64,000 nt of DNA from Flavobacterium caseinilyticum (lineage in GTDB: Bacteria; Bacteroidota; Bacteroidia; Flavobacteriales; Flavobacteriaceae), in assembly GCF_004349085.1 (NCBI RefSeq), contig NZ_SMFM01000002.1, positions 620,001 through 684,000 on the forward strand. The letters are read 5' to 3'. This document shows, piece by piece, positions 51,418 through 62,720 of the stretch (the stretch's first letter is position 1; every line of letters begins with the position of its first letter). The notes beneath the pieces were generated by a model that was given only the letters and a program-made list of their open reading frames with translations, was not told the origin of the DNA and searched no databases. A program made the position numbers and the translations under genes.

Positions 51418-51433
51418 TATGATAATTATCATT
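51418..51433 (+). promoter_or_regulatory. FNR-like box upstream of hemN
   Basis: TATGA-TAATTA-TCATT contains a perfect 14-bp palindrome, ATGATAATTATCAT, at 51419-51432. The core TGA-N6-TCA equals the FNR/CRP core spacing. Its centre is 36.5 bp upstream of the last base of the hemN -7 element, the same distance as in the ccoS and ccoI promoters. Confidence 0.7.
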
Positions 51434-51454
51434 TTAATATTTGAGTAGTCGTTC

Positions 51455-51462
51455 TACTTTTG
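51455..51462 (+). promoter_or_regulatory. -7 promoter element of hemN
   Basis: TACTTTTG matches TAnnTTTG, 22 bases before the ATG at 51485. Confidence 0.6.
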
Positions 51463-51484
51463 ATCAACAATAAATGATTTTGCC

Positions 51485-52849
51485 ATGAAAAATTCCTTGA
51501 TACAAAAATACAATGTTCCGGGTCCAAGATACACGAGCTATCCAACGGTTCCCTATTGGGATGAAACTGATTTTTCGGATGAAATTTGGGCTGAAACACT
51601 AAAGAAATCATTTGTAGAAAGTAATTCTTCAGAAGGCATTAGTTTATACATCCATTTGCCATTTTGCGAAAGCTTATGTACTTTTTGTGGCTGTAACAAG
51701 CGGATTACCAAAAATCATGGCGTTGAGAATCCATATATAGAGGGAGTCTTGAAAGAATGGGCATTATATTGTAAGATTCTTGGAGAAAAGCCAACTATAA
51801 AAGAAATTCATTTGGGCGGTGGAACTCCTACGTTTTTTTCCACCAAAAACTTAGAGGATTTAATAAATGGTATTTTTGTTCATGCCAAAAAAGCCAAAGA
51901 TCACGAGTTTAGTTTTGAAGGCCACCCGAATAACACCTCCCACGAGCATTTGCAAAAACTATACGATTTAGGTTTTAGAAGAGTGAGTTTTGGCGTTCAG
52001 GATTACTCAGAGAAAGTACAAAAAGCGATTCACAGGTTGCAGCCTTTTCATAATGTAGCAAAAGTTACATTTTGGGCCAGAGAAATTGGGTATACCTCCA
52101 TTGGACATGATATCATTTTTGGTTTGCCATTTCAGGAAATTGAAGATATTATTGATACGATTGAAAAAACAAAATCATTACAGCCAGACCGATTAGCATT
52201 TTATAGTTACGCGCATGTTCCTTGGATTAAGGGAAACGGACAACGTGGTTTTAATGATGAGGATATTCCAAAAGATGATAAAAAGAGAATGTTGTACGAG
52301 ACTGGTAAAAAATTATTGTTTGAAAACGGATATCATGAAATAGGTATGGATCATTTTGCGCTGAAAACAGACAGTTTACATGAGGCTTTTCAAAATGGTG
52401 CATTGCATCGCAATTTTATGGGCTATAGTTCCTCAAAAACACAATTGATGATTGGATTGGGTGTTTCGTCCATCAGTGACAATTGGTATAGTTTTGCACA
52501 GAATGTAAAAAATCTGGAAGATTATTATCAAATATTAGAATGGAATAAATTACCGGTTTTCAGAGGACATTTATTGACCGATGAAGACCTAATCATCCGA
52601 AAACACATTCTGAATTTAATGTGCCAATTTGAAACTTCCTGGGAAAATAAGGAAAGTTATTTCATTGAAATCCCAGATGTCCTACTTCAGTTGCAAGAAA
52701 TGGAAAATGATGGATTACTGATCATTAAAGACAATTCAATTACCGTTACTGAAAAAGGGAAACCTTATGTTAGAAATATTTGCATGGCATTCGATTTACG
52801 CTTAAAAAGAAAAGCTCCGGAAACAGCATTGTTTTCGATGACCATTTAA
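51485..52849 (+). CDS. hemN: Oxygen-independent coproporphyrinogen III oxidase
   Basis: This 454-residue radical-SAM enzyme converts coproporphyrinogen III to protoporphyrinogen IX when oxygen is scarce. The iron-sulfur cluster motif is CESLCTFCGC (CxxxCxxC plus the extra Cys) near residue 60. The conserved LGGGTPTFFS, GRxSFGxQD-like FRRVSFGVQDYSEKVQKAI and HDIIFGLPFQ are present. The length fits the true HemN group and not the shorter HemW. An FNR-like box and a -7 element lie upstream, which fits low-oxygen induction together with the cbb3 oxidase genes 1-10 kb away. Confidence 0.95.
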   Translation: MKNSLIQKYNVPGPRYTSYPTVPYWDETDFSDEIWAETLKKSFVESNSSEGISLYIHLPFCESLCTFCGCNKRITKNHGVENPYIEGVLKEWALYCKILGEKPTIKEIHLGGGTPTFFSTKNLEDLINGIFVHAKKAKDHEFSFEGHPNNTSHEHLQKLYDLGFRRVSFGVQDYSEKVQKAIHRLQPFHNVAKVTFWAREIGYTSIGHDIIFGLPFQEIEDIIDTIEKTKSLQPDRLAFYSYAHVPWIKGNGQRGFNDEDIPKDDKKRMLYETGKKLLFENGYHEIGMDHFALKTDSLHEAFQNGALHRNFMGYSSSKTQLMIGLGVSSISDNWYSFAQNVKNLEDYYQILEWNKLPVFRGHLLTDEDLIIRKHILNLMCQFETSWENKESYFIEIPDVLLQLQEMENDGLLIIKDNSITVTEKGKPYVRNICMAFDLRLKRKAPETALFSMTI

Positions 52850-53035
52850 TTTTATGAATTTTTTAAAATAAAAAAGTAATTGGACGGTCACAACTTATAT
52901 GGTAATTCCCTTCAAATTTTAACAATGAGATTAAGAGATAACGAGCAAATACATTCAAATTTAAAGTTAGAAGCTATTGACGATCTTGAATATTAAATAA
53001 TAAATTCCTGACAATTAACAAATTTTACATAGCAC

Positions 53036-53064
53036 AAAAAAGCACGCTGAATGGCGTGCTTTTC
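53036..53064. terminator. Bidirectional terminator between hemN and the cbb3 operon end
   Basis: AAAAGCACGC pairs with GCGTGCTTTT around a short loop. It lies close to the end of the TauE/SafE-type gene on the minus strand. Confidence 0.8.
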
Positions 53065-53084
53065 TATACTAAACTATTAGAAAG

Positions 53085-53786
53085 TTAATGACAGTTTGGA
53101 TCAGATTGAATAAACAAACTCATATTAGATGGGGAAATATAAGGGATTCCCAATCCTAATCCTCTCAAGATAAATAAGCAACCAATGCATACCGCTACAT
53201 AAGGTATTGCTTTCTGGATTTTATTTCTAAAAGGAACTGTTAGATATGAATTGATATACACAACGCTGCTCATCATAGGAACGGTTCCTAATCCGAATAG
53301 AATCATGTACAGAACACCTAAGCTCTCACTTTGCATGGCAATCGCACCAAACAACGCTACATAAACCATCCCGCAAGGTAAAAAACCGTTCAGTAAACCA
53401 ATAGTAAATAGGGATTTATAACTCTTGTTTCTAAACTGACTTCCTAAAGCCGTTTTAATTTTAGAAATTATTTTAAAAACAGGTTTTGAAAAATTATATT
53501 TGGCAAAAATTTTCTCTGGAGTCAAAACTACTAAAATCATGGCTACACCGATAAATATGGATAAGTTTTGTTGTAAACCGGCCATAAAAAAACCTTTTCC
53601 AAGCAGTCCAAAAACGAAACCTATGGTCGAATAAGCTGTTAATCTTCCTAAATGATAAGTGATAATTTGAGTTGCTTTTTTGGCCTGATTCGTTCTGTCT
53701 ACGGGCAACATCATAGCAATAGGACCGCACATACCAATGCAGTGGAAACTACTTATTAAACCGAAAATGAAGGCAGTGTAAAGCAT
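53085..53786 (-). CDS. TauE/SafE-type membrane protein of the cbb3 locus
   Basis: This 233-residue protein has about six transmembrane helices and begins MLYTAFIFGLISSFHCIGMC. The SSFHCIGMCGP motif, with its His and two Cys residues, is typical of the sulfite exporter TauE/SafE or DsbD-like proteins found beside cco genes. Relatives are thought to act in copper handling or oxidase assembly. It is the last gene of the cbb3 unit, 72 bases after ccoH. I do not assign a gene symbol because the naming in this group is inconsistent. Confidence 0.82.
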   Translation of the reverse strand: MLYTAFIFGLISSFHCIGMCGPIAMMLPVDRTNQAKKATQIITYHLGRLTAYSTIGFVFGLLGKGFFMAGLQQNLSIFIGVAMILVVLTPEKIFAKYNFSKPVFKIISKIKTALGSQFRNKSYKSLFTIGLLNGFLPCGMVYVALFGAIAMQSESLGVLYMILFGLGTVPMMSSVVYINSYLTVPFRNKIQKAIPYVAVCIGCLFILRGLGLGIPYISPSNMSLFIQSDPNCH

Positions 53787-53858
53787 TTTTTTACTCTAAT
53801 GTCATAGTGCCAATGGTCATAAAGTCCAGTAACTGGCTTTATCACTTTGACTTTGAGA

Positions 53859-54311
53859 CTAATTGATATAAATTGTTTCTTTAGACAAGTACGATTTTCC
53901 ATCATATTGCCATTCCATATTAATGTCCCATCGACCGCCTGCCAAACTTTTTTTAGGTATGAGCAAAGTAGTAGCATCAGATAGTGAAATGGGAATTTCA
54001 AAATCTAATTTTTTGTTAGACGGTCTGTAAAGGGACACTTTTCCTTTGACAATTTTTGGATCAAAAACTTTTGGGAATACTATTTCAATTCCATTTGAAA
54101 CACTCTTAATTGTTGGCTTTTGAGCCAAATCAGCTGCATTTTGCACACGAGCCATTTCATCACCAAAATGTGCATCGTGTTTATAATATTCTTCTACAAC
54201 TAACTCATTATCGTACTTTGAATCGGATTGAACCGTAAAAACAAAATACAAAATGAAGGTCATAAACAAACCAAAAGCGATTACTATTCCTGTTCCCCAG
54301 CTAATTTTCAT
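53859..54311 (-). CDS. ccoH: CcoH/FixH family oxidase assembly protein
   Basis: This 150-residue protein has one N-terminal transmembrane helix (GIVIAFGLFMTFILYFVF) and a periplasmic domain of about 110 residues. The FixH-type segments are ELVVEEYYKHDAHFGDEM and, near the C-terminus, SLAGGRWDINMEWQYDGKSY. FixH/CcoH is needed for stable assembly of the cbb3 oxidase. It lies between ccoG and the TauE/SafE-type gene, with a gap of 47 bases from ccoG. Confidence 0.9.
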   Translation of the reverse strand: MKISWGTGIVIAFGLFMTFILYFVFTVQSDSKYDNELVVEEYYKHDAHFGDEMARVQNAADLAQKPTIKSVSNGIEIVFPKVFDPKIVKGKVSLYRPSNKKLDFEIPISLSDATTLLIPKKSLAGGRWDINMEWQYDGKSYLSKETIYIN

Positions 54312-54358
54312 GATATTGTATTTATATTTTTTTTTTTGAACCTTGAAGTGGATACTAT

Positions 54359-55777
54359 TTAATCAAAACTACGCGGACTTAAAAAATTAGTGGTCGCCGT
54401 TTCAATTTTTTCATCTCCATTATACACCTCAATTTTCAATTTTGTTTTATCGCTATCCAATAAATTTTGGTTGATTTCAACAAATAAAGTTCCACCATTC
54501 ATTCCTTGTTTGGGTACTTTTAATTGTTGTTTTCCGACCATTTTTAAAGTTCCTTTTATACCCACCAACTTGAAACGAATATCATTAAAATCATTATTTG
54601 TTTTATTGATGATTTTAAAAGTGTAAATGTTGCTAATATTATCACCTTTATGCTGAAACAATTGTCCTGGCAATCTTAAAATGCTGGCTTCAACATCCGA
54701 ACGTAAGAACAATAATCCAATCAAAATTCCTGTCAAGATGAATAATACGGCCGAATATCCTTTCATTCTTGGCGTAAATTTGAACTTAACTTTTTTCTCA
54801 ATTTCATCTTCTGAAGCGTATCTAATAAGTCCCTTTGGTAAACCAACGCTATCCATAATCGTATCACATTCATCAATACAAGCGGTACAATTGATACATT
54901 CCATCTGCGTCCCGTTACGGATGTCAATTCCGGTTGGACATACATTTACACATTGTTTACAATCGATACAATCGCCTTTTCCAGTAGTCGCTCTGTCTTC
55001 TTGCTTGTTGAATTTAGCACGGCCTACTTCTTTTTCGCCACGAACAAAATCGTACGCAACATTTATAGATTTATCATCTAATAAAACGCCTTGTAATCTT
55101 CCGTAAGGGCAAGCTATGATGCAAACCTGTTCTCTAAACCAAGCAAAAATAAAATAGAAGACTCCTGTAAAAATGAATAAAGAAACCAACGTACTGACAT
55201 GGTTTTTTGGTCCTTCCTGAATCATTAAAAACAGCTTGTCGCTACTGATAAGATACGCAAGAAATACATTGGCAATAAAAAAAGAAATGATAAGGAACAC
55301 TGTCCATTTTATGCTTTTCTTTCTGATTTTTTCTGCATTCCATTCTTGTTTTTCCAAACGAATCTGGGCACCGCGATCGCCTTCAATCCAATATTCTATT
55401 CTGCGGAAAACCATTTCTAAAAAGATGGTCTGCGGACAAATCCATCCGCAAAATATCCGTCCAAAAATCACCGTAAAAAGGATGACGAAAACTACCCCGA
55501 TAATCATAAAAAGCACAAACAGATAAAAATCTTGCGGCCAAAAAGGAAATCCGAATATATTAAATCGGCGCTCCAGTATATTGAACATCATGAATTGATT
55601 CCCATTTATCTTTATAAAAGGATTCGCAACAAGTACAATCAGTAAAAAATAACTCACCCATTTCCTGTAATCATAAAACTTCCCTGAAGGTTTTTTGGGA
55701 AAAATAAATTTTCTATTTCCCTCTTCATCAATAGTTCCAATGGTATCTCTAAACGCTTCGTCTGGTAATTTTGACAT
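54359..55777 (-). CDS. ccoG: CcoG iron-sulfur membrane protein
   Basis: This 472-residue protein has several membrane helices and two cluster-binding regions: CIDCKQCVNVCPTGIDIRNG and CINCTACIDECDTIM, each of the ferredoxin type. GRIFCGWICPQTIFLE is also typical of CcoG. The C-terminal 120 residues form an immunoglobulin-like periplasmic domain. CcoG reduces copper during cbb3 oxidase maturation in other bacteria. It lies 75 bases downstream of ccoP, in the same direction. Confidence 0.94.
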   Translation of the reverse strand: MSKLPDEAFRDTIGTIDEEGNRKFIFPKKPSGKFYDYRKWVSYFLLIVLVANPFIKINGNQFMMFNILERRFNIFGFPFWPQDFYLFVLFMIIGVVFVILFTVIFGRIFCGWICPQTIFLEMVFRRIEYWIEGDRGAQIRLEKQEWNAEKIRKKSIKWTVFLIISFFIANVFLAYLISSDKLFLMIQEGPKNHVSTLVSLFIFTGVFYFIFAWFREQVCIIACPYGRLQGVLLDDKSINVAYDFVRGEKEVGRAKFNKQEDRATTGKGDCIDCKQCVNVCPTGIDIRNGTQMECINCTACIDECDTIMDSVGLPKGLIRYASEDEIEKKVKFKFTPRMKGYSAVLFILTGILIGLLFLRSDVEASILRLPGQLFQHKGDNISNIYTFKIINKTNNDFNDIRFKLVGIKGTLKMVGKQQLKVPKQGMNGGTLFVEINQNLLDSDKTKLKIEVYNGDEKIETATTNFLSPRSFD

Positions 55778-55852
55778 TTTTTCTTATTTAAAACACACAA
55801 GTTTAAAATAATTAGTAAAATTCTTTAGTTAAATAAAAACGTGTGTTAATTG

Positions 55853-56752
55853 TTATTTAACCGCAACAGTAACATCTTCTTCTACCCAAACTTCTCCTTC
55901 AGGACCTTTTGCATCTGGTGGGTTACTTCCTTTTAAGGATAAGATATAACTGGCAACTTTCTGCATTTCTTTAGGTTTCAATGTACCTTTCCAAGAAATC
56001 ATTCCTTTTCCGTCACGTCCTCCATTCACCAAAGTATGAAATACATTTTTTATTCCGCCACCTAAAATCCATTGATCATCTGTTAGGTTCGGCCCAATTT
56101 GCCCTCCCGCATCTGCCCTGTGACAAGCTGCACAATTGGTTGTGTAAATTTCTTTCCCCGCTGCTAAATCAGCAGGATCTGTCAATAAAGTCACCGTTTT
56201 TTCATCCATCATGTCTGGTGCAGTTTTCATATATTCTGCAATATCAATTTTGGCCTGAGCCACTTCTTTCGTAAGTTCCATTTCCTGATTGTCAGCTCCT
56301 AAAACTTCATAGCGCACCATATAAACAACTCCGAATAAGATACAAGCATAGAATAAATACACCCACCATGGCGGTAAATTATTATCTAACTCTTTGATAC
56401 CGTCATAATCATGATCTAATAATAATTGACCTTCGTTATCCAATGACTCGGTTTTAGTCAGTTTTGTCATCAGCTTTTTAAACCAGTCGCTATCTCTGAA
56501 ACTTAAAGCGTTTGCTTCCTTTAATTGTATTTTTTGTTCCTCGGTCAACAAGTGATAGGTAATATTGTCAACGGCATTCACGGTAATTTCTATTGCTATC
56601 AAAAGGAAAAGAAATACGAATAAGAATACGGAAACCATTGGGAATTTTATAAAAGCAGGTCTGTCTCCTGAGTCAATAAAGTATTCCATTGCTAGCAATA
56701 CAGCAAAGAAAATAACAGGTACTCTAACGTATGCTGGAATTAATTTTTTCAT
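55853..56752 (-). CDS. ccoP: cbb3 oxidase subunit III (CcoP), one haem c site
   Basis: This 299-residue subunit carries electrons toward the catalytic subunit. The N-terminal half has membrane helices and the CcoP N-terminal domain with WWVYLFYACILFGVVYM. The C-terminal cytochrome domain has a single haem c motif, CAACH, near residue 204, with a later methionine in GKGMISWKG as likely axial ligand. Proteobacterial CcoP has two CxxCH motifs; only one is visible here. It lies between ccoQ and ccoG. Confidence 0.93.
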   Translation of the reverse strand: MKKLIPAYVRVPVIFFAVLLAMEYFIDSGDRPAFIKFPMVSVFLFVFLFLLIAIEITVNAVDNITYHLLTEEQKIQLKEANALSFRDSDWFKKLMTKLTKTESLDNEGQLLLDHDYDGIKELDNNLPPWWVYLFYACILFGVVYMVRYEVLGADNQEMELTKEVAQAKIDIAEYMKTAPDMMDEKTVTLLTDPADLAAGKEIYTTNCAACHRADAGGQIGPNLTDDQWILGGGIKNVFHTLVNGGRDGKGMISWKGTLKPKEMQKVASYILSLKGSNPPDAKGPEGEVWVEEDVTVAVK

Positions 56753-56779
56753 TTTCTAAATTTTAAAAAATTATACTAT

Positions 56780-56950
56780 TTAGTTGTCTCTTAATGGAAA
56801 TTGACTCAATTCATTTATCGTTTCTTTTTTATAGGACAAAACCCACAAACCAAGACCTACAAAAAAGAAGAAAAAAATCAATAGTGATAAGATGGGATAT
56901 ATCGCCACACCTTCAATCGTTTCCATATTATGTTTTATTTGTTCGAACAT
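56780..56950 (-). CDS. ccoQ: cbb3 oxidase small subunit CcoQ
   Basis: This is a 56-residue protein starting MFEQIKHNMETIEGVAIYP. One transmembrane helix (LSLLIFFFFFVGLGLWVLSY) is followed by a short charged tail ending QFPLRDN. The position between ccoNO and ccoP, the size and the single helix match CcoQ. It starts 5 bases after the ccoNO stop codon. The frame is uninterrupted and too short for many gene finders. Confidence 0.9.
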   Translation of the reverse strand: MFEQIKHNMETIEGVAIYPILSLLIFFFFFVGLGLWVLSYKKETINELSQFPLRDN

Positions 56951-56955
56951 GACTT

Positions 56956-59145
56956 TTATTTTTTAGCAACATCTTTTACTTTAATATCGGTTCCAAGTCT
57001 TTGCATATAAGCAATCATTGCAACGATTTCTCTTTCATTCATTGGAATAAATTTCTCTCCTCTAGCTTCGGCTTTTTTCTTGCTTTCATCATAACTTTTT
57101 ACAAAGTCAGGATCATTTTTCAAACTTTCTTCAATTGCGACAGCTTGTTTTCGTAAATCATCTAAACCACTTGCAATTTCAGCTTCAGTGTAAGGAACTC
57201 CAAGCGTTACCATTACCTGCATTTTCTTTTGAGTCAAAGAAACATCCATTGGTTTATTGTCAAACAACCATTTGTAACCTGGCATAATTGATCCAGCAGA
57301 GATACTTTGAGGATTCCAAAAGTGGTTAAAATGCCAATTATCATTGTATTTTGCTCCAACTCTCAATAAATCCGGACCTGTACGTTTTGATCCCCAAAGG
57401 AACGGGTGATCGTATACAAATTCTCCTGCTTTAGATTGCGGTCCATAACGTTCTACTTCACTACGGAAAGGACGAACAGACTGCGAGTGACAACCCACAC
57501 AACCTTCACGAATGTATAAATCACGTCCTTCTAATTCTAATGGAGAATATGGTTTTACACTGGCAATAGTTGGAATATTTGACTTAACCATAATCGTTGG
57601 TACAATTTGGATAACACCGCCAATTAAAATTGCGATAGTTGCCAAAATAGTTAACTGAATTGGTTTTCTTTCTAACCAAGGGTGAAATTTCTCTCCTTTA
57701 ACTCTTCCTGCACTAATTTTCAATAATTCCTGCGCTTCAGCTAATTCATCTTCAATTTTAGAACCTAATCTTACCGTTTGGATAATGTTGTAAACCAAAG
57801 TAAACATTCCTATTAAATAAAGGGTTCCACCAATAGCTCTCATCCAATACATTGGCATAATTTGAGTTACTGTTTCAAGGAAGTTACCGTAGGTTAAAGT
57901 TCCGTCCGGATTAAATTGTTTCCACATCGATGCTTGTAAAAAACCAGCAACATACATTGGAATCGTGTATAATATAATTCCTAAAGTTCCAATCCAAAAG
58001 TGAAAATTAGCTAATTTAAGAGAGTATAAACTACTTTTAGTCATTCTAGGAACCAACCAATAAATCATACCAAAAGCCATAAATCCATTCCAGGCTAATG
58101 CACCTACGTGAACGTGAGCAATAATCCAGTCTGTATAATGCGCAATAGCATTTACGTTTTTCAAGGATAACATCGGTCCTTCAAAAGTCGCCATTCCGTA
58201 ACCGGTAATCGCTACAACGAAGAATTTTAAAACTGGTTCCACACGTACTTTATCCCAAACGCCTCTCAACGTTAAAAGTCCGTTTATCATTCCACCCCAA
58301 GATGGCGCAATCAACATAATAGAAAATGCAACTCCTAAATTTTGTGCCCAGTTAGGTAAAGCAGAATATAATAAATGGTGTGGTCCTGCCCAGATATAAA
58401 TAAAAATCAACGACCAAAAGTGAACAATTGACAATCTATAAGAATACACCGGACGATTTGCCGCTTTTGGAACAAAATAATACATCAATCCTAAGAAAGG
58501 TGTGGTCAAGAAAAATGCAACCGCATTATGACCGTACCACCACTGCACTAAAGCATCTTGAACTCCTGCATAAACGGAATAACTTTTCATTCCTGAGACC
58601 GGTAATGCCAAACTATTGAAAATATGTAAAACCGCTACAGTAACAAAAGTTGCTAGGTAAAACCAAATCGCAACATACAAATGGCGCTCTCTACGTTTCA
58701 TGATTGTCCCAATCATATTTATACCAAAAACAACCCAAATCAATGCGATTGCAATATCTATTGGCCATTCTAATTCGGCATATTCTTTAGATGTACTGTA
58801 CCCTAATGGCAATGATACCGCTGCCGCGACAATAATTAATTGCCAACCCCAGAAATTAATAGCACTCAAAAGATCACTGAACATTCTGGCTTTTAACAAT
58901 CGCTGCAACGAATAATAAATACCCGCAAACATTGCATTTCCAACAAATGCAAAAATAACCGCATTGGTGTGTAATGGTCTTAATCGACCGTAACTCAACC
59001 ACGAAATACCATCGGTAATATTTGGAAAAAGAAACATAAAGGCCAATGTAAGTCCCACTAACATTCCTACTACTCCAAAAACGATGGTCGCGTAAATGAA
59101 GTTTTTTACAATTTTGTTATCGTAATAAAACTGCTGCATTTCCAT
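56956..59145 (-). CDS. ccoNO: cbb3 oxidase fused subunits I and II (CcoNO)
   Basis: This 729-residue protein joins CcoN and CcoO, which are separate in Proteobacteria. The CcoN part (to about residue 490) has the haem-copper oxidase helices, with histidines such as those in WYGHNAVAFFLTTPFLG and HVHVGALAWNGF. The CcoO part contains one haem c motif, CVGCH, near residue 548, then GPDLLRVG and a distal methionine in SIMPGY. Together they reduce oxygen with high affinity and pump protons. The fusion is common in Bacteroidota. The gene lies 49 bases after ccoS. Confidence 0.96.
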   Translation of the reverse strand: MEMQQFYYDNKIVKNFIYATIVFGVVGMLVGLTLAFMFLFPNITDGISWLSYGRLRPLHTNAVIFAFVGNAMFAGIYYSLQRLLKARMFSDLLSAINFWGWQLIIVAAAVSLPLGYSTSKEYAELEWPIDIAIALIWVVFGINMIGTIMKRRERHLYVAIWFYLATFVTVAVLHIFNSLALPVSGMKSYSVYAGVQDALVQWWYGHNAVAFFLTTPFLGLMYYFVPKAANRPVYSYRLSIVHFWSLIFIYIWAGPHHLLYSALPNWAQNLGVAFSIMLIAPSWGGMINGLLTLRGVWDKVRVEPVLKFFVVAITGYGMATFEGPMLSLKNVNAIAHYTDWIIAHVHVGALAWNGFMAFGMIYWLVPRMTKSSLYSLKLANFHFWIGTLGIILYTIPMYVAGFLQASMWKQFNPDGTLTYGNFLETVTQIMPMYWMRAIGGTLYLIGMFTLVYNIIQTVRLGSKIEDELAEAQELLKISAGRVKGEKFHPWLERKPIQLTILATIAILIGGVIQIVPTIMVKSNIPTIASVKPYSPLELEGRDLYIREGCVGCHSQSVRPFRSEVERYGPQSKAGEFVYDHPFLWGSKRTGPDLLRVGAKYNDNWHFNHFWNPQSISAGSIMPGYKWLFDNKPMDVSLTQKKMQVMVTLGVPYTEAEIASGLDDLRKQAVAIEESLKNDPDFVKSYDESKKKAEARGEKFIPMNEREIVAMIAYMQRLGTDIKVKDVAKK

Positions 59146-59194
59146 AAATAAAAAAATTAAATGATTGAAAAATTTAAAAAATTAGTGTTGAATA

Positions 59195-59386
59195 TTATAA
59201 AGTCTCCTGACTTTCGCCCTTTGACTTTTCAACTTTAGGCTGGATTAACTCATCGTCAAATAGCATTCTGACCGATGGTGTATAATCGTCATCATACTGG
59301 CCTGTCTTTACTGCAGTTATAAAAGCAATAAAAAATCCGATAGCGACTATTATACTGATGGAGATTAATAAATAAATGACACTCAT
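59195..59386 (-). CDS. ccoS: cbb3 oxidase maturation protein CcoS
   Basis: This 63-residue protein has one N-terminal transmembrane helix (MSVIYLLISISIIVAIGFF). The CcoS tail follows, with TGQYDDDYTPSVRMLFDDE. It helps insert cofactors into the oxidase. It is the first gene of the ccoS-ccoNO-ccoQ-ccoP-ccoG-ccoH unit. A promoter with an FNR-like box lies upstream, in the 114-base gap after ccoI. Confidence 0.92.
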   Translation of the reverse strand: MSVIYLLISISIIVAIGFFIAFITAVKTGQYDDDYTPSVRMLFDDELIQPKVEKSKGESQETL

Positions 59387-59403
59387 ACCTTAATTTATGT
59401 TAA

Positions 59404-59411
59404 CAAAGTTA
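59404..59411 (-). promoter_or_regulatory. -7 promoter element of the ccoS-ccoNOQP unit
   Basis: TAACTTTG on the minus strand matches TAnnTTTG exactly, 17 bases before the ccoS ATG. Confidence 0.65.
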
Positions 59412-59432
59412 CTTTGACGATTTCAAGTAAAA

Positions 59433-59448
59433 TATGACATTTATCATA
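59433..59448 (-). promoter_or_regulatory. FNR-like box upstream of ccoS
   Basis: TATGA-CATTTA-TCATA on the plus strand is a 5-6-5 palindrome. Its centre is 36.5 bp from the last base of the ccoS -7 element, the same as at hemN and ccoI. That places it near -42 of the predicted start of transcription. Confidence 0.7.
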
Positions 59449-59500
59449 CTTATCACTTTTGTTAAAAATATGTGAAAAAAATCAGAAAATTTTTATTTTT

Positions 59501-61942
59501 CTACTTTTTATTTGAATAATAACTGCTCATCACCGTTACAAAACTTACAATGGTTATTGTACTTAACGGCATGATAATAGCTGCAACCAGTGGCAACAGA
59601 TTTCCGGTTATGGCAAACGATAATCCCACGACATTATACAATAAGGATAATGCAAAACTCATTTTAATTGTTGTAATAGAATTTTTAGATAATTTCAAGA
59701 AATAATTCAGTTTTTGAAATTCACCGGCATCCAAAATAGCATCACAAGCCGGTGAAAAAACATTCACATTTTCAGAAATCGAGATTCCAACATTGCTTTG
59801 CGCCAAAGCTCCGGCGTCATTTAATCCATCGCCCACCATCATCACATTTTTGCCTTGTTCCTGCAAATTTTTTATGAATTCTAATTTTTGTTCTGGTTTC
59901 TGATTGAAAATCAATTCCGTGCCTTTCGGCAAAAGCTGTTCAAGAGTTGTTCGTTCGCCTTCGTTGTCACCTGATAAAACCTTGATTTGATAGTTAGTGC
60001 TTAAGTTCCTGAAAAGCTCTTCCAGTCCTTCTCTGTATTGATTGTTAAAAACGAATTTCCCGTAATAAGTATCATTAATCTTGATGTGAACTGATGTCCT
60101 CTCCCCAACTCTCTCCAAAGAAGAGGGAAACGAAATAGAAAATGGTGGCTCACAAAATTCTTCAGAACCAATTTGGATTTGGTGACCAAAAATCTGAGCT
60201 CGAATTCCTTTTCCGGTGATTTCTTCAAAAGAATCTACTTTCAACTTTTTGGAATCGTGTACCGATTTACTTTGTAAAATTGAAATAGGCAAATAATCAT
60301 ACAACATTCGGCTTAACGGATGATTGGAGGCGCGTAATACATTTTTTATCAGCAACAAATTTTCATCAGAAAGAATGGTTCCTTCATAAGAAATATTCGA
60401 TTTTTTATTGGTGGTAATCGTTCCCGTTTTATCAAAAACAATTGTATCAACTTTTGCTAATTGTTCAATTACCAAAGCATTTTTGAGATAAAACTTCTGC
60501 TTACCTAAAATTCTCAATATGTTCCCAAAAGTAAATGGTGCCGTCAGTGCTAAAGCGCAAGGACAAGCAACAATCAATACCGCAGTAAATACATTGAAAG
60601 CAGTGTTGGCATCTATAAAAATCCAATATCCAAATCCTGCAAAAGCAATCAGTAATAAAATAGGTGTAAAATAACGGCTGATACTATCGGTAATCGTTTT
60701 GTGTTTTTGCTCTACATTTTTTTGGAACACATCATTACTCCATAATTGTGTCAGATAACTTTGAGAGACGGAATGTAAAACCTCCATTTCGATTACTTTT
60801 CCTATTTGTTTCCCCCCCGCAAAAACTTTGTCTCCAGACTGTTTCGTAATGGGAATCGCTTCTCCTGTGACGAAACTATAATCGATTTCCGCTTTTTCCG
60901 AAATCAAGATTCCATCAACCGGAATAAGTTCTTGATTTCTGATTAGTAGTCTGTCGCCTTTTTCAACTTCATAAATTGCTACGCTTTCTTCTGATAAATC
61001 CGAATTGATTTTGGTAATCGCTATTGGAAAATACGATTTAAAATCCCTTTCGAAACTCAAAAAACTATAGGTTTTGATTTGGAACATTTTCCCCAAAAGC
61101 ATAAAGAAAATCAATCCGGTCAAGCTGTCGAAAAAACCGGAACCGTAATCCATGACAATATCAAAAGTACTTCGCACAAACATCACTACAATTCCTAAAG
61201 CAATTGGAATATCGATATTTAGCATTTTAGTTTTGATACTTTTATACGCCGAAACATAATAACCACTCGCTGAATAGAAGAAACTTGGCAGCGATAAAGC
61301 GAAAATTAACCAACGAAAAAAACCGCGGTATTGATCCAGCCAATATTCTTTAACCTCAAAATATTCGGGAAATGAAAGCAACATAATATTTCCGAAACAA
61401 AAGAAAGCAACGCCCAATTTATAGGTTAAACTTCTATCTACATTTTTACTTCCCGTTTCATAGTTTTCTAAACTAATGTACGGTTCATAACCAATAGAAC
61501 TTAACAAGTAAACAATCGTTTTGATAGAAACCACTTCGGGATTGAAGGTGATTCGGACTCTTTTTTCAGGGAAATTAACCTGCGAAGTGCTTATTCCTTT
61601 TTGAAGACGCTGTAGATTTTCCAAAATCCAAATACACGAGCTACAATGAATATGTGGAATGTTAAGTGAAATAATTGCGGTTGAATTTTCTTGAAATTCC
61701 AAAAGCTTGGATACAATACTTTCATTGTCTAAAAAATCATATTTACCATTAATATCTTGCGGGGTTGCTCCAGGGGATTTTTCGAAATCATAATAGCACG
61801 TCAAATCGTTAAGACTAAAAATTTCATACACCGTTTTACAACCGTTGCAACAGAAATTTTTAGCATCAAAAATAATTTCGTCTTCTTTAATAATATCTAA
61901 CCCACAATGGAAACAGTTTTGTGTGTCCATAACTTTGCTCAT
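59501..61942 (-). CDS. ccoI: Copper-translocating P-type ATPase of the cbb3 locus (CcoI-type)
   Basis: This heavy-metal P1B ATPase loads copper for the oxidase. The N-terminal region has cysteine motifs CFHCG and CNGCKTVYEIF, then a heavy-metal domain with HCSSCIWILEN. The membrane copper motif is CPCAL near residue 459, the phosphorylated Asp is in DKTGT near residue 501, and GDGLNDAGAL is near the end. The frame allows ATG at 61942, but the ATG at 61930 (MDTQNCFHCG) is more likely, since it leaves an 18-base leader after the predicted promoter. It ends 114 bases before ccoS. Confidence 0.93.
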   Translation of the reverse strand: MSKVMDTQNCFHCGLDIIKEDEIIFDAKNFCCNGCKTVYEIFSLNDLTCYYDFEKSPGATPQDINGKYDFLDNESIVSKLLEFQENSTAIISLNIPHIHCSSCIWILENLQRLQKGISTSQVNFPEKRVRITFNPEVVSIKTIVYLLSSIGYEPYISLENYETGSKNVDRSLTYKLGVAFFCFGNIMLLSFPEYFEVKEYWLDQYRGFFRWLIFALSLPSFFYSASGYYVSAYKSIKTKMLNIDIPIALGIVVMFVRSTFDIVMDYGSGFFDSLTGLIFFMLLGKMFQIKTYSFLSFERDFKSYFPIAITKINSDLSEESVAIYEVEKGDRLLIRNQELIPVDGILISEKAEIDYSFVTGEAIPITKQSGDKVFAGGKQIGKVIEMEVLHSVSQSYLTQLWSNDVFQKNVEQKHKTITDSISRYFTPILLLIAFAGFGYWIFIDANTAFNVFTAVLIVACPCALALTAPFTFGNILRILGKQKFYLKNALVIEQLAKVDTIVFDKTGTITTNKKSNISYEGTILSDENLLLIKNVLRASNHPLSRMLYDYLPISILQSKSVHDSKKLKVDSFEEITGKGIRAQIFGHQIQIGSEEFCEPPFSISFPSSLERVGERTSVHIKINDTYYGKFVFNNQYREGLEELFRNLSTNYQIKVLSGDNEGERTTLEQLLPKGTELIFNQKPEQKLEFIKNLQEQGKNVMMVGDGLNDAGALAQSNVGISISENVNVFSPACDAILDAGEFQKLNYFLKLSKNSITTIKMSFALSLLYNVVGLSFAITGNLLPLVAAIIMPLSTITIVSFVTVMSSYYSNKK

Positions 61943-61953
61943 TTTACCTGAGG

Positions 61954-61961
61954 CAAAGGTG
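61954..61961 (-). promoter_or_regulatory. -7-like promoter element of ccoI
   Basis: CACCTTTG on the minus strand matches TAnnTTTG at seven of eight positions. Its distance from the shared FNR-like box is 36.5 bp, the same as at hemN and ccoS. Confidence 0.5.
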
Positions 61962-61980
61962 ATTAATTGAATAAGTTAAA

Positions 61981-62000
61981 AATATGATATTTGTCATATT
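61981..62000. promoter_or_regulatory. FNR-like box shared by ccoI and fnr
   Basis: AATATGA-TATTTG-TCATATT is a perfect 7-6-7 palindrome between two divergent genes. Toward ccoI its centre is 36.5 bp from the -7 element, the activating position. Toward the regulator gene it is only 24.5 bp away, where a bound protein would cover the -33 region. Confidence 0.72.
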
Positions 62001-62007
62001 AAAGGGT

Positions 62008-62015
62008 TAGTTTTG
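62008..62015 (+). promoter_or_regulatory. -7 promoter element of the Crp/Fnr gene
   Basis: TAGTTTTG matches TAnnTTTG, 25 bases before the ATG at 62040. Confidence 0.58.
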
Positions 62016-62039: not shown

Positions 62040-62720
62040 ATGAGTAAATGCGAACAATGTATAGTAAGAGAATTCAGCTCTTTAAAAGCACTTACTAAAG
62101 ACGAATTACTAAAACTTTCAGACTGTAAAACATCTCATATCATTAAAAAAGGGGAGGTTATATTTGAAGAAGGCGAGAATGTAAACGGTATTTACTGCAT
62201 CAAAGATGGCATCTGCAAGCTTACTAAACTAAGTGCAAACGGTAAAGATCATATTGTAAAATTAGTTACCAAAGGAGAATTACTAGGACAACGCTCGATG
62301 ATTAGCGATGAACCGGTGAATCTAAGCGCTGTTGCTCTTGAAGACATGCAGGTTTGTTTTATTCCAAAGTCGGAAGTGATGGGATATTTTGATAAGAATA
62401 ACCAGTTTTCGATGAATGTGATGCGAAGTATTTGTGGTGATTTAAAAGAAGCCGATGATCACATGGTGAATTTAGCCCAAAAAACCGTTAAAGAAAGATT
62501 GGCAGAAGCGCTTCTTTACTTGCACGACACCTTTGGAGAAAATGACGATAAATCCTTAAAAGTACAACTTTCAAGAGACGAACTAGCCAGCATAATTGGC
62601 ACTGCCACCGAAAGTTGCATCCGTTTGCTATCTGATTTTAAAAAATTAGGTCTGATTGAATTAACAGGAAAAAAAATAGTTTTAAAAGATATCAATGCGC
62701 TAAAAAAATTAGCAGAATAG
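62040..62720 (+). CDS. Crp/Fnr family transcriptional regulator
   Basis: This 226-residue regulator has an N-terminal cyclic-nucleotide-type beta barrel, a long dimer helix and a C-terminal winged helix. The N-terminus carries CEQC (Cys4, Cys7); Cys29 and Cys106 could complete an FNR-like 4Fe-4S site, though spacing differs from Escherichia coli FNR. The recognition helix is ELASIIGTATESCIRLL, whose Glu and Arg align with the FNR residues that contact the TGA half-site. The gene is divergent from ccoI and shares a TGA-N6-TCA box with it. An oxygen-response role is inferred from context. Confidence 0.9.
   Translation: MSKCEQCIVREFSSLKALTKDELLKLSDCKTSHIIKKGEVIFEEGENVNGIYCIKDGICKLTKLSANGKDHIVKLVTKGELLGQRSMISDEPVNLSAVALEDMQVCFIPKSEVMGYFDKNNQFSMNVMRSICGDLKEADDHMVNLAQKTVKERLAEALLYLHDTFGENDDKSLKVQLSRDELASIIGTATESCIRLLSDFKKLGLIELTGKKIVLKDINALKKLAE

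Follow-up and report, generated by a model that had tools for sequence, protein, structure and literature searches.

In the FNR protein of Escherichia coli, the iron-sulfur cluster is liganded by Cys20, Cys23, Cys29, and Cys122, the consensus site is TTGATnnnnATCAA with the half-site TTGAT, and a promoter called FF-41.5 was used in the same study (PMC4214427). Possession of the four cysteines is the accepted rule for calling a protein FNR, with FixK being the relative that lacks the cluster cysteines (PMC2908626), and in CRP, residue 180 has been linked to base three of the site (PMC1274295). In Flavobacterium psychrophilum, oxygen limitation strongly induces the cbb3 oxidase and also induces heme-synthesis enzymes (PMC9723704); a word search of the main text of that paper found nothing that starts with Crp or Fnr, and among the titles and abstract openings listed from the open-access literature, none names an oxygen regulator for the Flavobacterium cbb3 oxidase. 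A candidate for such a regulator is described here from a stretch of 64,000 nucleotides (nt) of Flavobacterium caseinilyticum (contig NZ_SMFM01000002.1, positions 620,001 to 684,000; hereafter the window). It is a Crp/Fnr-type protein of 226 amino acids with cysteines C4, C7, C53, and C106, encoded at 62040..62720 on the plus strand by a gene (here fnr) divergent from ccoI, and it is considered together with three palindromes that stand before hemN, before ccoS, and between ccoI and fnr.

The regulator probably binds the three palindromes through an ATGAY half-site and activates the cco and hemN genes at low oxygen by means of a [4Fe-4S] cluster with one relocated ligand. In this mechanism, the protein would recognise the YATGAYANNTRTCATR-type palindromes and, when oxygen is low, would switch on hemN, the ccoS-ccoNO operon, and ccoI. 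If this is true, a regulator, a site, a promoter geometry, and four mutable residues are now named for the control of the Flavobacterium cbb3 oxidase.

Re-reading of the window returned the palindromes of the initial annotation letter for letter at 51418-51433, 59433-59448, and 61983-61998. The candidate site before hemN, TATGATAATTATCATT, is at 51418..51433 on the plus strand; that before ccoS, at 59433..59448, reads TATGATAAATGTCATA on the minus strand; and the motif search places TATGATATTTGTCATA at 61983..61998, as a candidate site shared by ccoI (minus strand) and the regulator gene (plus strand). The refined motif for all three is YATGAYANNTRTCATR. The TATGA form first proposed needs relaxing to YATGAY: its outermost base is variable, and what matters is the inner Y-A. 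Within the window, TATGAN6TCATA with at most one mismatch was found nine times (3.79 expected; none of 100 shuffles reached nine), and the only perfect copies are the ccoS site and the ccoI/fnr site. In the whole genome, the refined core ATGAYANNTRTCAT occurs exactly at seven places, three of which are those before hemN, before ccoS, and between ccoI and fnr.

The Bacteroidetes -7 box TAnnTTTG, which has a frequency of 0.00087 per position in the window, lies exactly 21 nt downstream of each palindrome, with one mismatch at ccoI. The boxes are TACTTTTG in the hemN promoter (51455..51462, plus strand), TAACTTTG in the promoter of the ccoS operon (59404..59411, minus strand), and the weak, once-mismatched CACCTTTG in the ccoI promoter (61954..61961, minus strand). 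In F. psychrophilum, this box has been placed at -12 to -5 (PMC9723704). With 21 nt in between, the 16-mer therefore spans -49 to -34 and is centred on -41.5. A centre at -41.5 is where CRP/FNR proteins classically bind as class II activators; given the published placement of the box, the sequence thus puts a class II position upstream of low-oxygen genes, from which the regulator would activate. On the regulator's own side, the shared site is 9 nt from the -7 box TAGTTTTG (62008..62015, plus strand), and its centre, about -29.5 there, falls on the -33 region, a placement from which autorepression by the regulator is predicted.

The geometry recurs across the genus. Of 101 Flavobacterium genomes, 69 carry motif, N21, and box without mismatch (hereafter the strict composite), with 105 matches in all; the reversed pattern gave none. 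When the spacer was left free between 6 and 36 nt, 97 of the first 150 matches listed had it at 21, 10 at 20 or 22, 35 at 7-9, and 8 elsewhere; the reversed control with the same freedom matched once, in G098. In F. caseinilyticum itself, the originally proposed motif combined with a box at 21 nt has the ccoS site as its sole match without mismatch, and hemN and ccoI supply two of the four matches with one mismatch; the refined composite adds one further place, C25:132534. Loosening motif plus box to as many as three mismatches gave 75 matches against 73 and 61 in controls, and this was rejected as a list of targets.

Conservation was followed at orthologous loci, for which the best 80 of 388 stretches encoding the regulator were kept. 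The fnr side could be examined in 79 of them (L094 has no adjacent ccoI) and the region upstream of ccoS in 73, the other seven lacking the gene or the stretch; of the 94 hemN places, which are spread over 92 genomes, 70 were sampled, namely the 30 loci already given and 40 of the 64 others, hand-picked down the list. Before ccoS, 72 of the 73 loci keep the site and have the box precisely 21 nt after it; before hemN, the site is kept in 69 of 70 genomes, with a TAnnTTTG box at the same distance. In the fnr-ccoI gap, 59 of the 79 loci have a best match with all 10 letters, 19 have one with 9 letters, and 1 has one with 8. By comparison, 9 or 10 letters are reached in 394 of 20000 random 120-nt stretches from the same loci, true sites included, and in 352 of 5000 AT-rich 120-nt stretches, a choice that favours true promoters. 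Towards fnr, a TAnnTTTG or TAnnTTTA box lies 7-9 nt away in 76 of 79 loci; towards ccoI, a box with at least five of six letters lies at 21 nt in 60 loci and at 20 or 22 nt in 8, and 11 have none. When the 72 ccoS promoters with a box of at least five of six letters at 21 nt were aligned on the site, no variation was seen in ATGA, in TCAT, or in the TTTG of the box, and most of the spacer was free. One gap site stands out: in L105 (Flavobacterium restrictum), the best match is the odd TATGACAAAAGTCACA, in which TATGA and TGTGA halves are mixed, at an unusual place.

The strict composite also follows the regulator. With a close ortholog of the window protein taken as a match with E under 1e-60, the composite is present in 18 of the 23 Bacteroidota genomes that have one, and none of the remaining 224 carries it (247 genomes; Fisher 3e-23, kinship ignored). 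Within the one family concerned, the figures are 18 of 23 with the ortholog and 0 of 4 without, and within the genus Flavobacterium, 68 of 91 with it and 1 of 10 without (Fisher 1e-4), this one being a genome of 76% completeness. Site conservation, this co-occurrence, the helices of the other Crp-type proteins described below, and the retention of Glu191 and Arg195 support the adjacent Crp/Fnr protein as the candidate cognate regulator, as was first supposed.

A number of observations weigh against the proposed regulator and its sites. Over the 3.84 Mb of the genome, the bare TATGAN6TCATA, the motif of the test proposed in the initial annotation, has 10 perfect places and the reversed pattern 5, which is barely above control; 3 of these are intergenic (L006, L007, L010), 4 lie within an open reading frame (ORF; L003, L005, L008, L009), L001 overlaps a gene start, and L002 and L004 have no complete ORF within 3 kb. 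On these figures (10 places versus 5, 3 of 10 intergenic), the bare motif was rejected as a genome-wide definition of the regulon. The refined core with zero or one mismatch fares little differently, at 76 places versus 52 for its reversed control, and of the three window sites only that of ccoS is perfect in both motif and box. Among the orthologous loci, L119 has the regulator and no proper ccoS site, and the ccoI box is weak, starting with TA in just 5 of 68 loci and being absent near 21 nt in 11 of 79. All 23 genomes with the ortholog, and thus all 18 with the composite, belong to a single family; the threshold of 1e-60 on E was chosen after the list had been inspected; and weaker homologs in other classes come without the strict composite, which none of the 220 genomes outside the family has. 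Among the promoters of distant homologs, the architecture is clear in L180 and weak in L183, which leaves L180 as the one clear case outside the family. The strict composite is missing from 23 of 91 genus genomes and 5 of 23 phylum genomes that do have the ortholog. Of the 10 genus genomes without it, 8 have no hemN, 7 have no ccoNO match, and one has only a 31% match; regulator, sites, and targets are thus kept or lost jointly, and their co-occurrence is not an independent test. G068 (76% complete) has sites, and the ortholog was not found in it; in G038, which is 99% complete and has no ortholog, one palindrome persists, with boxes 22 and 14 nt away, and its persistence speaks against a strict one-to-one link. 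In F. psychrophilum, the hypoxia genes are also induced by iron scarcity (PMC9723704), a response that a simple iron-sulfur activator does not predict.

The poor showing of the bare motif would suit an origin of the palindromes in chance or in transcript hairpins rather than protein binding, as would the ccoI/fnr site, which in single-strand folding does somewhat better than shuffles (z -2.53). The other two sites fold no better than shuffles (z -0.16 and -0.36), the sites lie upstream of predicted starts, and the spacing to the -7 box is conserved, so that such an origin is scarcely credible; a DNA hairpin was rejected on the folding of two of the three sites together with this spacing. It is the fixed 21-nt distance, overlooked in the initial annotation, that rescues the palindromes from the poor bare-motif test.

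The intergenic place L010, also recorded as L294 (G000 C26:132659), is of interest in itself: a perfect TATGACCATTGTCATA is followed shortly downstream by TATGATTTTGTCATA, whose middle is one base shorter. The gene behind the two encodes a lipoprotein-like product of 235 residues without a Pfam match.

Recognition of the palindromes can be considered from the helix of the regulator. The glutamate and arginine that the initial annotation expected in the recognition helix are present as Glu191 and Arg195 in all of the best 120 of 7982 homologs. Between and beside them, the window protein has Thr190 and Ile194, and its sites carry A at base three. We take Thr190 to occupy the place of CRP Arg180 and Ile194 that of FNR Ser212. 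The change in half-site from TTGAT in FNR to ATGAY would then be due to these changes in the recognition helix, where the decisive contact presumably lies, with Glu191 and Arg195 still reading TGA. The full site is ATGAYnnnnRTCAT and does not match the classical FNR consensus (PMC4214427). The HcpR/CRP-type site wTGTGAnnnnnnTCACAw has the same half-site spacing as the palindromes here and differs at base three, which is A in the window, with Thr190 replacing Arg180. An assignment to HcpR2 was rejected because its published motif is different (GTAACnnnnGTTAC, PMC1274295). If the helix reading is true, the recognition code of the family gains one base, an A at the position of the CRP G and the FNR T.

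Three further proteins with a Crp-type helix-turn-helix, one of them below the family cut-off, are encoded in the genome, and one of these might bind the sites, the adjacent gene being a mere neighbour; the palindrome that persists in G038 without the ortholog would fit. Two of the three, however, have the helix SREVISR (SREVISRLL, with Arg at the 180 place) and the third has PETLSR, and one SREVISR-type gene is itself adjoined by TGTGA sites with equal spacing. G072, which lacks the ortholog, has a response-regulator/Crp fusion instead, and its three sites each have one GTGA half. A different Crp-type regulator is accordingly most improbable, and the adjacent protein is retained as the probable one.

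The second Crp-type regulator (L292:1002-1628; G000 C12:436000-507500, covering L291, L292, L293, and L296) adjoins a sulfide:quinone reductase-like gene, and the wider L291-L296 stretch holds metallo-beta-lactamase/rhodanese (persulfide dioxygenase-like) genes and peroxiredoxins. Several promoters there have TGTGA..TCAC-type sites, likewise 21 nt before a TAnnTTTG-type box, and the promoters of C12:436000-507500 may be viewed as a candidate sulfide regulon.

G072 is a single contig, 100% complete, in which the cco cluster and hemN are present and the ortholog is absent. Beside hemN and cco, it encodes a response-regulator/Crp fusion with helix PETVSR (L392:131-1177) and a PAS histidine kinase (1174-2361). 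Its ccoS, hemN, and ccoI sites all keep TGA-N6-TCA, with one half of each being GTGA, and the box stands at 21 nt both at ccoS and at hemN, where it reads TAATTTAG and has one mismatch. The arrangement resembles that of the window in setting a Crp-type output domain beside hemN and cco with the sites kept; it differs in having a receiver domain and a histidine kinase gene in place of the CxxC/C53 set, and in its GTGA half-sites. G072 was rejected as a case of sites lost with the regulator, since the sites persist.

Membership of the window protein in the CRP/FNR superfamily follows from matches over cut-off to PF00027, the cyclic nucleotide monophosphate (cNMP)-type beta-roll, and PF13545, the Crp helix-turn-helix, and its fold agrees. 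Its best named relatives are from Flavobacterium species (96% identity), and closest in both sequence and fold is P. gingivalis 2gau, with A. fischeri FNR among the next; 2gau has no cysteine at the C53 and C106 places, and its helix is SNAIR versus ESxIR here. The NCBIfam Fnr model gives 90.8 bits against a cut-off of 228. When the protein is aligned to FNR, the first, second, and fourth ligands are matched by C4, C7, and C106, and the third by Ser13, so that the classical C-x2-C-x5-C with Cys122 is lacking. In the FNR proteins of E. coli and A. fischeri, the third ligand is Cys29; this place is Ser in the window protein, Ser or Asn in most relatives, and never Cys among the best 120 of 7982 homologs, C53 being an addition. 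The window protein is thus a relative of FNR and not a classical FNR, and the altered cysteine set, missed at first, is the new part.

This set is widely conserved. Eight cysteines are invariant in 81 Flavobacterium sequences. Of 50 distant loci fetched, L199 was left out as an interrupted gene, and among the remaining 49 full-length relatives, mostly from other genera, 47 have both C53 and C106 and 45 have all four cysteines; two have an unresolved N terminus, and L196 and L197 have none of the four. All 83 picked rows have the four cysteines, as do 118 of the best 120 of 7982 profile matches, the two others lacking C4. In the structure model, C53 is on strand 50-56 and C106 on strand 103-109, which we take to be neighbours in the cNMP fold. 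Twenty further paralogs were picked, 11 with CxxC and 9 without; those 11 have at least one additional N-terminal cysteine and keep C106 throughout, and at position 53, 10 of them have Phe and 1 has His. The third ligand thus seems to be placed at C53 or, alternatively, in the tail. An O2-labile [4Fe-4S] cluster on C4, C7, C53, and C106 would accordingly provide the oxygen signal, in the arrangement of E. coli FNR with the third ligand shifted out of the N-terminal tail and into the beta-roll.

The cysteines, too, supply points on the other side. The 120 homologs lean towards four cysteines, as the profile was built from 13 four-cysteine sequences, and the CxxC-bearing tail is modelled at low confidence. 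L401 (G334; helix SNAIR) has Cys at 53 and 106 without CxxC, which the ligand model leaves unexplained and which refutes a strict linkage of C53 to CxxC; L397 and the G072 fusion keep just the Cys at 106. An extra cysteine at position 16 occurs in 46 of 121 sequences, so C53 is not the sole possible third ligand, and as Cys16 and C53 stand together in these 46, strict exclusion between an N-terminal third cysteine and C53 is refuted.

Such observations bear on whether the same regulator and sites might work without a [4Fe-4S] cluster, sensing redox state, nitric oxide, a thiol modification, or a small molecule, with oxygen control lying elsewhere (compare FixK2 or MalR-like proteins). Some CRP/FNR homologs of Flavobacteriales, perhaps other paralogs than this one, have been predicted to be carbon sensors (PMC8510549), and L401 has its two cysteines without CxxC. 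Cysteines 29, 53, 59, 106, 132, and 193, all outside CxxC, are moreover invariant in the 81 Flavobacterium sequences, which makes a thiol switch possible. Against this stand the retention of all four cysteines in the distant sets of relatives, the presence of Cys at position 53 in the subclass of this regulator, with Phe or His there in the 11 other CxxC paralogs, and the nature of cco and hemN as typical oxygen targets of FNR and FixK. Sensing without a cluster is therefore rather unlikely, though the least unlikely of the alternatives, and the cluster-bearing activator is preferred. In contrast to FixK2 of Bradyrhizobium, the window protein has an invariant set of four cysteines and a gene linked to ccoI; held to the definition of FixK, the absence of FNR cluster cysteines, it lacks one classical cysteine and has a conserved alternative four.

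With its altered cysteine set, the protein is therefore a candidate for a Bacteroidota FNR class, FNR-like in its working and not classical FNR. That such a class exists, with C53 as third ligand beside the Cys122 strand, a Thr/Ile helix reading ATGAY, and 21-nt class II promoters, seems a reasonable, if less assured, proposition. If it is true, the four-cysteine rule for FNR (PMC2908626) would miss a phylum-wide class.

Two further observations concern genes of this kind. L199 (G302, Bacteroidota) is a copy of the regulator gene interrupted by two in-frame stops. In other Flavobacterium genomes, L406, L407, L410, and L411 encode a Crp/Fnr paralog with N-terminal C-x2-C-x4-C and the C106 place, whose helix is TEEQ or TDEQ, a second and more classical-looking FNR type in the genus.

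The genes downstream of the window sites are as follows. hemN (51485..52849, plus strand) encodes an oxygen-independent coproporphyrinogen III oxidase (TIGR00538, 422.8 bits, over cut-off). The cco cluster, to which ccoI also belongs, runs on the minus strand from ccoS (59195..59386; TIGR00847, over cut-off) through a ccoNO fusion for cbb3 oxidase subunits I/II (56956..59145; PRK14485, 1329 bits), a ccoP-like subunit III gene (55853..56752; FixP_N and Cytochrome_CBB3, with TIGR00782 at 106.7 bits, below the cut-off of 180), ccoG (54359..55777; TIGR02745, over cut-off), and ccoH (FixH; 53859..54311; PF05751) to a DsbD_2-type membrane protein that ends it (53085..53786; PF13386). The ccoI/fixI-type P-type ATPase gene (59501..61942, minus strand) is named by its domains (E1-E2_ATPase, ATPase-cat_bd, and HMA) and its place.

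Taken more widely, 118 distinct composite sites, identical ones counted once, precede the cco operon in 68 cases, a small membrane peptide in 15, hemN in 6, and other genes in 29; hemN is undercounted by the strict composite because its sites mostly end in TCATT. Just 4 of the 118 are centred within an ORF call of at least 150 amino acids, a count that ORFs entering the stretch from outside would escape, and three of those four calls (218, 522, and 399 amino acids) exceed the target ORF by only 17-25 codons and may be the target frame with its start called too early. A start codon follows within 260 nt at 117 of 118 sites, which is a weak test, with ORFs from 40 codons up being admitted. The other targets include ATP-dependent phosphoenolpyruvate carboxykinase, pyruvate phosphate dikinase, the NiFe hydrogenase small subunit, HypA, a NapC/NirT-type cytochrome, a multicopper oxidase-cytochrome c protein read here as nitrite-reductase-like, an MFS transporter, and another Crp/Fnr protein; a sulfate permease and CBS, YceI, and Fasciclin proteins have no evident link to oxygen. 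On balance, judged from the genes encoded, the set looks like a low-oxygen regulon.

The small membrane peptide, at 15 of 118 sites the second-commonest composite target after the cco operon, is conserved, has 41-46 residues and one predicted membrane helix, and is possibly a small oxidase subunit. The copy in F. caseinilyticum (L295:1604-1732; G000 C25, about 132604) begins MKDTTLFSWDNGTFIM and has no Pfam match, and relatives are found in L127, L207, L216, L223, L224, L230, and others.

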